Shown here: positions 1,620 to 61,507 of the stretch, in pieces | Numbering within the stretch: position 1 is the first letter of the stretch | Layout: every line of letters begins with the position of its first letter | Assembly: GCA_021777375.1 (NCBI GenBank) | Contig: JAJYDV010000001.1 | Location: 75,347 to 136,853 of the forward strand | Direction of reading: 5' to 3' | DNA length: 61,507 bases | Origin: a bacterium | Lineage (GTDB): Bacteria; Patescibacteriota; Saccharimonadia; Saccharimonadales; UBA4665 | The notes under the pieces: model-generated | Databases searched by the model: none | What the model was told of the DNA's origin: nothing | Seen by the model: the letters and a program-made list of their open reading frames with translations, nothing else | Program-made: the position numbers and the translations under genes

Positions 1620-2807
1620 TTATAGAGCAATATTATTCGGATCGGTTGGATCAAAGGTTGATCCTTCTTCCACAGGAGATTGCATAGCCTGTTGACTCGC
1701 CCCCTCCATGGCTAGTAATTCATCAAGACTTTTTTTCGGCACCTGATCAAGAGGTTGGATAATCTTCCTGCCGCTAACTGCATTATTAGGCAGCGTGGGC
1801 TCTGATGTCGATTCTGTGGATGGATCGTTCACGCCCGGTGTAGTTGTGTCGCTATCCGCGTTTAGAGCTGAAGTTTGTTGAACGGGTGGCTGATTTTTGT
1901 CTGACATCAGGTCATCGAGGGCACTATTTAAAGTCTGGTCGTTGGATACTTGCGTTGCATCCATAGTTGGATTAGGAATTGTTGATTCGGATTGTGATTG
2001 AAATTGTTGAGATGTCGTTTGGGTAGAATCTTGAACTGTGTTTGGGGTAGATTGCGTAGATTCAGCCGGTTCGTTAGTAGATAATTGGCCACTAGAATTA
2101 ATAGATATTTCGTCAGATACTGGTGCTTGAGTTTGATTCTGATTGTCTTCAACTGGAAGATCAGAAGAAGACAATGCGGCGTTAACTAAACTATTCTGGT
2201 CTTCCATTTGAGGTGCATTTACTGGTGCAGAAGCTAACGGTTGCTGTTGCATTGGCTCGGCTGGTGGAGCTGGTTGCATCTGGTCTTCCATTTGAGGTGC
2301 ATTTACTGGTGCAGAAGCTAACGGTTGCTGTTGCATTGGCTCGGCTGGTGGAGCTGGTTGCATCTGGTCTTCTAATACCGGCGATAGGGCCGTTGGATTA
2401 GTCTGTACGGGTTCAGTTGTAGCTTGGTTTTCTTGAGGGGCATCTCCTAATAATTCATGAGCAACCTTTACTATATCCTCAAGAGTAACTTGGGATTTTA
2501 CTAAGTAGCGATCGGCTCCTAGATGCGAAGCTCGACTTTGGTCTTCGGCTTGCCCAAGGGCGGTAAGCATAATTACCTTTGAATCTTGAAGTCCGGGTGT
2601 ATTCCGCAAAATGTCAAGCATTTCAAACCCACTGATCTTAGGCATCATAACATCCGAAATAATCAGATCGGGCTTCTCTGATTTGGCAACAACAAGAGCT
2701 TCCTCACCGTCCTTGGCGGACGCAATAACGTATCCTTCGGCCTGAAGCCTTGCTTCATAAATTTCTCTTAGATTGTTATCGTCTTCGACGAGTAGAATTT
2801 TTAACAT
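1620..2807 (-). CDS. Response regulator with long disordered, repeat-bearing tail
   Basis: Residues 1-120 form a receiver domain with acidic pair EDD at 8-10, phospho-acceptor Asp52 (SDVMMP) and a conserved Lys near 104. The remaining ~270 residues are Gln, Pro, Ser and Thr rich, with no DNA-binding or enzymatic domain, and end in a conserved-looking stretch rich in charged residues (SGRKIIQPLDQ, KKSLDELLAMEG). The tail contains two perfect copies of a 28-residue unit coded by an 84-bp tandem repeat. It sits 27 bp downstream of a histidine kinase on the same strand, so the pair is likely a two-component system whose output is protein-protein interaction through the tail. Confidence is high for the receiver, low for output. 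Confidence 0.88.
   Translation of the reverse strand: MLKILLVEDDNNLREIYEARLQAEGYVIASAKDGEEALVVAKSEKPDLIISDVMMPKISGFEMLDILRNTPGLQDSKVIMLTALGQAEDQSRASHLGADRYLVKSQVTLEDIVKVAHELLGDAPQENQATTEPVQTNPTALSPVLEDQMQPAPPAEPMQQQPLASAPVNAPQMEDQMQPAPPAEPMQQQPLASAPVNAPQMEDQNSLVNAALSSSDLPVEDNQNQTQAPVSDEISINSSGQLSTNEPAESTQSTPNTVQDSTQTTSQQFQSQSESTIPNPTMDATQVSNDQTLNSALDDLMSDKNQPPVQQTSALNADSDTTTPGVNDPSTESTSEPTLPNNAVSGRKIIQPLDQVPKKSLDELLAMEGASQQAMQSPVEEGSTFDPTDPNNIAL
2195..2372. repeat. 84-bp tandem repeat inside response regulator gene
   Basis: Two consecutive copies (about 2197-2280 and 2281-2364) plus the first 8 bases of a third are identical at the DNA level by direct reading. The unit is 28 codons and keeps frame; it encodes the motif QMQPAPPAEPMQQQPLAS and flanking residues. 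Identity at synonymous positions indicates a recent duplication. Confidence 0.93.
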
Positions 2808-58303: not shown

Positions 58304-60211
58304 GTGCTAGACAATAAAATTCAAAATGCAATCGAGGAGGGGGTGTCGAAAGGCATACCGATAGATTTTATTGCCTATAGTCTAGAGCGTGCCGGTTGGC
58401 CAGTTCAAATGGTTCAAGAAGAAGTCAACAAGTGGCTAGTTAATAATGGCAGGTACCATAAGACGACGGCTTTTAAAGACTGGCTAAGGAAGTACTATAA
58501 GCAAGCTATACCAGGCATAATAGTAATGACCTTTTTTAACGTTATAGCTGATGGAATCGCACTGCTTAAACCTGTGCCTCTGAAGATCCTAGCTGACTCG
58601 GTTTTTGGGACCGTTCCGGCGCCAAGTATACTAAGGCCTTATACCGGAACCAGCAAGTTAATCATTTTTATTTCGTTAATGACCCTTGCGATTTTCTTGG
58701 TGGGGTCAATTTTCGGGGTATTTAAGGACTATGTTTTAAATAAAATCAGCTTTAGCTTAAATAAAAGCGTTAAAGAGGAATCCTTCAGACACATTCTGCA
58801 TCTGCCTCTATATCACGAAGGGAGACTCGCTAAGGGTGACTATATCTATCGACAAAATGATGTAACGACTAGTTTGTCTGATCTCACCTTAAACTCAGTA
58901 TCTGTTATTTCGGAGTCTATTATTCTAATTGTCGGAGTCTTAGCAATTATGCTTAAGATCAATGCCCCACTTGCCTTAATCACGCTTGTAATGATTCCAT
59001 TTTTAATACTGTCAGTGAAGAAGTTTGGCCCAATGATGTCGAAGTTTGGGAAACTGCTGGTAACTCTTCAGAGCAAAATGTCATCTCTTATAACTGAATC
59101 AATCGATAACACCGAGACCGTTCAAGCATTTACCCTTCAAGAAAGACAAGTTAACAGATTAAAAGATGTTTGGCAGAAAACATATGAAGTAACCAAGAAA
59201 GCTATTATTTGGAGTGATATTTTTAATTTTTCAAATGGCTTAGTGGTAATATTCGGCACTTCGCTAGTCATATATCTTGGTGGTAGTGAGGCCTTGAAAC
59301 ACGAGTTTACCCTAGGAGACTTGCTGTTGTTTATGACTTATATGGGTTATTTAATTGCTCCAATTCAGAATATTACCGAACAAGTTACGGTTCGTCGACA
59401 GAAGCTAGTGAACGTTAAACGAATCTATGAGGTACTTACTGACCACGAGGCTATCGAATACCAGCAACAGGATGTTAGGATTGGCAGGAGCGTAGGACGA
59501 ATTGATTTCCAAAACGTTTCTTATGCATATAACGAGAAAGTAATCTTAAATCAAATCAATATGACTATTATGGCTGGAGAGAAAATCGGGATTATTGGGC
59601 CAAGCGGTGCCGGTAAAAGTACTTTGCTCCGGTTGATTGACTTATACCTTGAGCCTACTGCGGGACGCATTTTGCTGGACGGAAAAGATATCCAATCTAT
59701 TAGCCTGCATGATTTAAGAAAGAATATTGCTTGGGTCAGTCAATTTCCGCAGTTATTTGCAGATACTATTGAAAATAATATTAAAGATGGAGATATCGAC
59801 AGACAGATTACCCCAGACGAGTTAGCTTGGGCTTCGATGGCTGCCAATATTGAAGAGTTTGTTTCTAAATTACCTCTTGGTAATCAATCAATTGTCGGAG
59901 AGGGCGGTTCAAGTTTAAGTGGTGGGCAGAAGCAAAGGATATCTATAGCTAGGGCTCTGGTAAAAAATGCACAAATTATTTGTTTAGATGAGCCTACTTC
60001 TGCGCTCGATACCCAGTCCGAGGTATATATTCAGAAATCAATTGGGGAGCTAATTAATGGTAAGACTGTCTTATTGGTCACTCACAGAATACCCTTGCTT
60101 AGCTTAATGGATAAGATTTACGTGTTGGATAACGGAAAACTGGTTGATGTTAATCAGTATGGAGGGCTTGAAAAGTATCTTTACGAGCTTAATCGGACTG
60201 GCGGATTATGA
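58304..60211 (+). CDS. ABC exporter (MsbA/MdlB-type half transporter) with N-terminal helical module
   Basis: A 635-residue fused permease-ATPase. The first ~50 residues form a short helical module with YSLERAGWPVQMVQEEVNKW, a pattern that recurs in CPR membrane proteins. Six transmembrane helices follow from about 70 to 350, then the ATPase: Walker A GPSGAGKST, Q loop VSQFPQLFADT, signature LSGGQKQR, Walker B IICLDEPTSALDT, and H loop VTHRIPLL. The start is GTG at 58304 with no Shine-Dalgarno. It is a homodimer or heterodimer half. The mosaic repeat gene begins 91 bp downstream on the same strand and may be linked to its function. Confidence 0.93.
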   Translation: MLDNKIQNAIEEGVSKGIPIDFIAYSLERAGWPVQMVQEEVNKWLVNNGRYHKTTAFKDWLRKYYKQAIPGIIVMTFFNVIADGIALLKPVPLKILADSVFGTVPAPSILRPYTGTSKLIIFISLMTLAIFLVGSIFGVFKDYVLNKISFSLNKSVKEESFRHILHLPLYHEGRLAKGDYIYRQNDVTTSLSDLTLNSVSVISESIILIVGVLAIMLKINAPLALITLVMIPFLILSVKKFGPMMSKFGKLLVTLQSKMSSLITESIDNTETVQAFTLQERQVNRLKDVWQKTYEVTKKAIIWSDIFNFSNGLVVIFGTSLVIYLGGSEALKHEFTLGDLLLFMTYMGYLIAPIQNITEQVTVRRQKLVNVKRIYEVLTDHEAIEYQQQDVRIGRSVGRIDFQNVSYAYNEKVILNQINMTIMAGEKIGIIGPSGAGKSTLLRLIDLYLEPTAGRILLDGKDIQSISLHDLRKNIAWVSQFPQLFADTIENNIKDGDIDRQITPDELAWASMAANIEEFVSKLPLGNQSIVGEGGSSLSGGQKQRISIARALVKNAQIICLDEPTSALDTQSEVYIQKSIGELINGKTVLLVTHRIPLLSLMDKIYVLDNGKLVDVNQYGGLEKYLYELNRTGGL

Positions 60212-60302: not shown

Positions 60303-61507
60303 ATGAATCCAACGAACGATAACAATAATGGGTTGTTCGGGTTTTTGAAAATATTTCGGGGTGATAAAAATAATACAACATCAGATCCCGGAAGTGTTCC
60401 GCCTCCGGCAACTACTGCGAATGCTGACCCTAGTCAAATAGAAGTACAGCAGGGTGCAGTTATTTTACCTACTACCACGAGCTTTGGCTCCCCTTCTGCT
60501 TCGACAATGAATGCTGACCTTAAGGAGATTGCCCAACAGAATGAAATTAGCAAAGAAAATGCGTCGAATCAAAATGCCGCAGATCCTGCCTCATCTACCA
60601 CGAACACGCCACCTATTTTTAGCAGCAGCTCCCCTTCTGCTTCGACAATGAATGCTGACCTTAAGGAGATTGCCCAACAGAATGAAATTAGCAAAGAAAA
60701 TGCGTCGAATCAAAATGCCGCAGATCCTGCCTCATCAGCCGGATCTTTGAATCGGTTATCTCCGGACCATACATTTACGTCTGGTGCAATGGCAGATCCT
60801 ACCTCACTTAGTAAAGAAAAAGTAAACCGGTTGAATATAAAACCTGTTGCTTCTAGCACTCTACCGTGGAACTACGCTATGGACAATTTGCATACAGATA
60901 TTTCAAATCCCGCAGTACTAAAGAAAATTACAAATAATTCAGTTGGAATTAAGTTTAAAGGAAATGGACTTAGCGATGGTAAAGGCGCTATCGATAGCGT
61001 TACGATAGATGGACACACGTATACTGATCTTGGGCATATTAACGGTGCAATAAAGTTTGTTTTAGATGAAAAGAGAGCAGACCCCTTATCAGCCGGATCT
61101 TTGAATCGGTTATCTCCGGACCATACATTTACGTCTGGTGCAATGGCAGATCCCACCTCATCAGCCGGATCTTTGAATCGGTTATCTCCGGACCATACAT
61201 TTACGTCTGGTGCAATGGCAGATCCTGCCTCATCTACCACGAACACGCCACCTATTTTTAGCAGCAGCTCCCCTTCTGCTTCGACAATGAATGCTGACCT
61301 TAAGGAGATTGCCCAACAGAATGAAATTAGCAAAGAAAATGCGTCGAATCAAAATGCCGCAGATCCTGCCTCATCTACCACGAACACGCCACCTATTTTT
61401 AGCAGCAGCTCCCCTTCTGCTTCGACAATGAATGCTGACCTTAAGGAGATTGCCCAACAGAATGAAATTAGCAAAGAAAATGCGTCGAATCAAAATGCCG
61501 CAGATCC
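60303..61507 (+). CDS. Mosaic modular repeat protein, runs off the window
   Basis: An open reading frame from ATG 60303 to the window end (401 codons) with no stop. A 61-codon head (NGLFGFLKIFRGDK, no signal peptide) is followed by modules: a truncated A (to 60593), A 60594-60734, B 60735-60806, a unique 94-residue C 60807-61088, B 61089-61160, B 61161-61232, A 61233-61373, and A cut at 61507. A is 47 residues, B is 24. Copies are identical by direct reading except at the last codons of B. Modules join at ADPA, ADPT or ADPL. A and B are polar and low-complexity; C looks foldable (AIDSVTIDGHTYTDLGHI). Function unknown; surface or secreted exported protein is an inference. Confidence 0.85.
   Translation, partial: MNPTNDNNNGLFGFLKIFRGDKNNTTSDPGSVPPPATTANADPSQIEVQQGAVILPTTTSFGSPSASTMNADLKEIAQQNEISKENASNQNAADPASSTTNTPPIFSSSSPSASTMNADLKEIAQQNEISKENASNQNAADPASSAGSLNRLSPDHTFTSGAMADPTSLSKEKVNRLNIKPVASSTLPWNYAMDNLHTDISNPAVLKKITNNSVGIKFKGNGLSDGKGAIDSVTIDGHTYTDLGHINGAIKFVLDEKRADPLSAGSLNRLSPDHTFTSGAMADPTSSAGSLNRLSPDHTFTSGAMADPASSTTNTPPIFSSSSPSASTMNADLKEIAQQNEISKENASNQNAADPASSTTNTPPIFSSSSPSASTMNADLKEIAQQNEISKENASNQNAAD
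60487..61507 (+). repeat. Array of near-identical 141-bp (A) and 72-bp (B) modules
   Basis: A copies: 60487-60593 (partial), 60594-60734, 61233-61373, 61374-61507 (cut). B copies: 60735-60806, 61089-61160, 61161-61232. A copies are identical by eye. B copies differ only in the final bases (CCTACC, CCCACC, CCTGCC before TCA). A 282-bp unique segment separates B copies one and two. All lengths are multiples of three. Confidence 0.92.

Follow-up and report, generated by a model that had tools for sequence, protein, structure and literature searches.

Streptococcal alpha-C/Rib proteins and Vsa proteins of Mycoplasma contain near-identical in-frame repeats, the number of which is changed by recombination. 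These types bear Sec signals, are anchored through LPXTG or as lipoproteins, and usually have one repeat type in tandem. Saccharibacteria are ultrasmall, parasitic-type bacteria with near-minimal genomes. In the obligate host-associated bacterium Ehrlichia, TRP47 and TRP120 possess tandem repeats variable in number and sequence, and are secreted by an ABC exporter with a C-terminal signal (PMC10225607). In the account by Shaiber et al. (2020, PMC7739484), a LysM protein (COG1388) is reported for 52 of 55 oral Saccharibacteria genomes, mostly flanked by cell-division genes, and host attachment is proposed for it. The term ABC transporter is absent from that paper, and its passages on the LysM protein describe no module shuffling. 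Nothing relevant on repeat surface proteins of Saccharibacteria, or on disordered proteins linked to ABC genes, turned up in the literature searched.

The locus discussed here belongs to a 723,950-base (~724-kb) Candidatus Saccharibacteria assembly of 15 contigs (genome G000), in which the window, a stretch of 61.5 kb analysed as a whole, lies on contig C13. Its last gene is a mosaic of modules termed A, B and C. Like the alpha-C/Rib and Vsa types, this gene has near-identical in-frame repeats; unlike them, it reshuffles several module types round a fixed C and shows no visible anchor or Sec signal. The mosaic protein has tandem repeats in common with the Ehrlichia TRPs, and would share with them secretion by an ABC exporter and a C-terminal signal; the likeness is drawn from these features. 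The Ehrlichia system differs by the presence of TolC in the outer membrane, acidic TRP repeats and an LDAVTSIF-type tail. The oral LysM locus of PMC7739484 is plausibly the same genomic slot as the exporter-linked gene, as loci L064 and L065 carry the exporter, a disordered LysM protein and a HAD-like gene. The window protein has no LysM match (PF01476, Pfam) and contains a different conserved domain in its place. Exported size-variable repeat proteins are of a known kind, to which this gene adds an undescribed domain and a conserved candidate exporter partner.

Module order and copy identity

The modules were delimited by splitting the open reading frame at the junction GCAGA[TC]CC (GCAGAYCC), which is common to them; the resulting features are collected in Table 1. 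The split reproduces the order A'-A-B-C-B-B-A-A of the preliminary description and its lengths of 141 bp for A and 72 bp for B. C, given there as 282 bp, measures 285 bp from junction to junction, and the B following it 69 bp. The remark that 282 equals 2 x 141 has no meaning, since the value depends on the placement of the cut. The first segment of the split, 60303-60578, comprises the unique N-terminus and a partial A. Every pre-gap module has a length that is a multiple of three and the modules are in frame, in agreement with the earlier claim. The sequence GCAGATCC occurs 8 times in the window, always on the plus strand and always within the mosaic gene, which excludes chance repetition. 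The mosaic gene with its reshuffled in-frame modules is real and unusual.

Table 1. Features of the exporter and mosaic gene in the window
Feature	Position	Strand	Basis
ABC exporter, 635 aa, candidate export partner of the mosaic protein; ABC_membrane and ABC_tran domains preceded by a short N-terminal extension	58304..60211	+	Pfam ABC_membrane 4.2e-37, ABC_tran 1.6e-37
Exact 18-bp tandem duplication with AAAGGTAG Shine-Dalgarno-like motif, immediately before the start codon	60267..60302	+	Tandem Repeats Finder; sequence
Unique N-terminus, MNPTNDNNNGLFGFLKIFRG..., without hydrophobic signal peptide	60303..60488	+	Open reading frame; hydropathy; kept in G005 and G010 orthologs
A', leading partial A	60489..60578	+	98-bp core same as other A copies
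A, 141 bp	60579..60719	+	Junction split
B, 72 bp	60720..60791	+	Junction split
C, 285 bp, conserved domain LPWNYAM...GHINGAI, sole confidently folded part	60792..61076	+	Homologs; AF2 model
B, 69 bp, lacking 3 bp at its junction	61077..61145	+	Junction split
B, 72 bp	61146..61217	+	Junction split
A, 141 bp	61218..61358	+	Junction split
A, 141 bp	61359..61499	+	Junction split
Start of next module, cut by 10-N gap	61500..61507	+	Continues in L005:1865-2400, tail with YPPSSTY...GW...DPINP

We also note that the 18-bp duplication may alter translation initiation of the mosaic gene.

The reading frame is open up to the end of the window, which is a 10-N scaffold gap (G000:C13:136854-136863) within the module array. 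Beyond the gap, one more A and a diverged B precede the unique tail and a stop codon at L005:2400. The end of the gene, which the preliminary description had sought past position 61507, is thereby located; no LPXTG-type sorting signal, also sought there, is visible in the tail. The frame before the gap carries on into the post-gap A if the missing sequence measures 14 bp, or 14 + 141n bp, and the copy number of the array is therefore limited by the assembly.

The 98-bp core of A is identical in all five copies (98/98 bp), the post-gap copy included, and over 134 bp there is no mismatch among the three complete A modules. Three copies of B have 65 identical bp in common, and a fourth, at the array edge, differs. 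Identity of the copies at synonymous sites, previously taken as a sign of recent expansion, is borne out by 0 differences at 13 four-fold sites per A core, as against 56% of four-fold sites that differ in the exporter gene between G000 and its G005 ortholog. The module copies are recently made and near-identical. Inner copies are uniform and edge copies (A' and the last B) are partial or diverged, which is read as the usual mark of unequal exchange.

The C domain and the slot behind the exporter

C is a conserved folded domain of ~80 aa that occurs once per gene and is common to other protein types, and is not just another shuffled module as it had been treated. Matches to C are found in proteins of G002, G005, G010, G014 and G218, in a paralog on contig C15 of the same assembly, and at the C-terminus of a long protein on contig C14. 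Homologs are present in 5 of the 19 genus genomes and in other families, and the residues invariant over 13 sequences include PW, TD and HIN. The structure model of C is confident (AF2 mean pLDDT 85.5) and has the order alpha-alpha-beta-beta-beta-alpha. In the model of the full protein, built on a five-sequence alignment, only C and a short A helix exceed pLDDT 50 and nearly all of the remainder lies below it, which suggests a mosaic protein that is disordered outside C. C gave no match in Pfam, NCBIfam or the PDB, where sequence and fold searches returned nothing below E 0.3; it is an undescribed domain without a structural relative found in the PDB.

The whole mosaic protein has only weak, partial matches in Pfam, NCBIfam and PHROGs. 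The helix-turn-helix family PF04967 (HTH_10) barely exceeded its cut-off, by adding up the identical A helices over the whole protein; the match covers 18 residues, no single stretch is significant, and it was rejected as a repeat artefact. A search of viral structures and viral contigs gave nothing significant, and a shared prophage or mobile origin was set aside for lack of a supporting match.

The third C-bearing protein, encoded at L007:7722-9893 (minus strand) on C14, is long and of membrane type with weak hydrophobic segments, and bears C at its end. It is probably coiled-coil. Its relatives are present across the order (L034, L035, L036), and it may be where the C domain originated.

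Between the exporter and the start of the mosaic gene lie 91 bp, in which no terminator-like site was found. In NCBIfam the exporter best resembles MsbA, T1SS and bacteriocin exporters, but every one of these matches falls short of its cut-off. The slot gene lies directly downstream of the exporter in G000 (two loci), G002, G005, G010 and G014 and in seven LysM loci. The exporter is found in 17 of 93 family genomes (E below 1e-10) and more sparsely across the order. Within the genus of the window, this exporter with its distinctive GWP-type N-terminal extension is present in 5 of 19 genomes, and exactly these five also have the C-domain protein (Fisher p 8.6e-5, kinship ignored); the G014 exporter is truncated where its contig stops, and adjoins the C-domain gene. 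The exporter is putatively dedicated to the mosaic protein.

In other genera (n=7), the gene after the exporter encodes a low-complexity protein with one or two Pfam LysM (wall-binding) domains, at E 7e-9 to 5e-27; next to it comes a similar HAD-like gene, with FtsA after that in L064. The conserved C domain stands in the slot held by LysM elsewhere, which is a domain replacement. More broadly, the 3' neighbour of the exporter is of low complexity (STPAGNQ above 50%) in 22 of 27 loci, compared with 16 of 123 other ORFs of at least 150 aa from the same loci (p 7e-12, kinship ignored). The slot protein of G305 has neither LysM nor C, and the exporters of G218 and G023 are followed by a gene other than that for the low-complexity protein. 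The HAD-like gene (L005:2397-2981, minus strand, and relatives), with a weak Pfam Hydrolase match, lies beside the slot in most genomes and may be functionally linked to it.

The tail motif [FYI]P..[SA][TSA]?[YF]-x(10-60)-GW (in short, [FY]P..SSY..GW) is present in 10 of 14 tails, among both C-domain and LysM types, while 0-3 of 2000 shuffles match. An eleventh tail, in G014, carries the degenerate version YPPHQAY...GW, and the motif is missing from three LysM proteins (G302, G225, G190). The common motif thus ties most C-domain and LysM types together as versions of one family. In distant families, the exporter is again often followed by a long low-complexity protein, but in convergent orientation. 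Low-complexity proteins encoded close to the exporter in distant lineages have similar C-termini (QYTDRQ in L102, GYTDQR in L108, GYTNPQ in L098), and this resemblance suggests lineage-specific C-terminal export signals.

The N-terminus of the window protein is polar, with a maximum 19-residue hydropathy of 0.57, and by hydropathy no Sec signal peptide or transmembrane segment is present in the window part. Inspection of N-terminus, array and tail revealed no LPXTG, lipobox or transmembrane anchor, and no RTX or other known T1SS repeat domain was matched in Pfam, NCBIfam or PHROGs. HlyD adaptor and TolC partners may not apply, because Saccharibacteria are regarded as monoderm.

Rearrangement between related loci

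The C-bearing paralog on C15 has modules of its own, with periods of 60, 96, 105 and 156 bp, in the order B4-C-D2-E-F2-E, gap, E-E-F-E'-tail; 10-N and 100-N gaps interrupt this array. At the same locus the order in the sister species G002 is B-C-D-B-F-E'-tail without a gap; the exporter genes of the two species are 95.7% identical at the DNA level. The G002 array looks reordered and not collapsed, because its D-B and B-F junctions are missing from the assembled G000 array. The proposal of a gene variable in size and order has therefore survived comparison at the species level, where module number and order differ at the paralogous locus. The window gene has orthologs in G005 and G010 that keep its unique N-terminus and differ in repeats. 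G010 carries a 54-bp repeat array of which its close relative G005, with an exporter 92.9% identical, has only one unit, and the 60-bp unit of G302 is independent of the repeats of other lineages. Since the paralog layout differs between sister species, the mosaic protein is probably fast-changing and located on or outside the cell surface.

Candidate function and alternative readings

The reading we favour, with a probability of roughly 0.55, is that of an ABC-exported, mostly disordered protein associated with the wall or surface, with C as its anchor and with variation by recombination at the junctions. The exporter encoded directly upstream, on which the preliminary description is silent, would export the protein, and the C-terminal tail would probably act as an uncleaved export signal. 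By analogy with LysM, which it replaces, folded C would probably hold the protein to glycan or cell wall, whether its own or that of the host. The flanking A and B modules could be spacers or ligand repeats, whose number and order would change by unequal recombination at the short common junction sequence with preservation of the frame. Such variation may have adaptive value, and interaction with host or phage may be the selective reason for it.

Repeat expansion within a disordered region can be neutral. A disordered linker round one functional domain would tolerate in-frame slippage and unequal crossing-over, and the arrays would then drift without selection on their variation. The low predicted structure of the A and B regions and the unrelated repeats of different lineages (54-bp unit in G010, 60-bp unit in G302) agree with such turnover, and diverged edges with identical inner copies are expected from plain unequal exchange. 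The independent recurrence of in-frame arrays at this slot among several lineages and the expansion of both paralogous pairs in one genome speak against it, though each is still compatible with neutrality. We regard neutral turnover as rather unlikely. Equally tentative is an extension of the surface reading to a conserved Saccharibacterial two-gene system, in which an N-extended ABC exporter is paired with a mosaic protein that has an interchangeable wall-binding domain (LysM or C) and is otherwise continually rebuilt at a fixed junction, giving a fast-evolving coat for host choice or phage escape. A dedicated, rapidly varying surface system would be the strongest such claim.

The profile matches of the exporter are generic (MsbA-, multidrug-, T1SS-like), and would also suit the transport of lipids or drugs. 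The protein beside it would then be cytoplasmic and disordered, and C would act inside the cell, for example by binding a partner at the membrane, like the C14 protein. MsbA is among the best NCBIfam matches, below cut-off, and the N-terminal part of the C14 protein that C terminates looks cytoplasmic. Against this, the exporter co-occurs with low-complexity proteins and repeatedly adjoins them across families, and the LysM domains found at that position suggest a place outside the cell; we consider this arrangement somewhat less probable again than neutral turnover. That repeat number and order reflect graph resolution of a metagenome assembly rather than the cellular state is very unlikely: the window and paralogous arrays are both broken by gaps, the G005, G010 and G218 contigs terminate inside or just past the homologous gene, and A copies identical over at least 134 bp are not uniquely orderable by short reads, but the modules, the frame, B-C-B and the unique flanks are within short-read reach, unrelated arrays of similar style occur in separate assemblies, and the gap-free G002 array has its own junctions.

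The locus bears on how Saccharibacteria recognise and hold host bacteria. It provides a candidate conserved exporter-substrate pair, a domain without a structural relative found in the PDB, and a type of locus with a different arrangement in each of two sister species. Cultured oral Saccharibacteria with genetic tools exist (PMC10633639), and the LysM-type counterpart there makes the pair testable. If the surface reading is true, near-minimal genomes can maintain a rapidly changing, probably external protein.

Elsewhere in the window lies another recent in-frame duplication, a perfect 84-bp (28-codon) tandem one at 2195-2372, within the low-complexity tail of an ORF that resembles a response regulator (1620-2807, minus strand).
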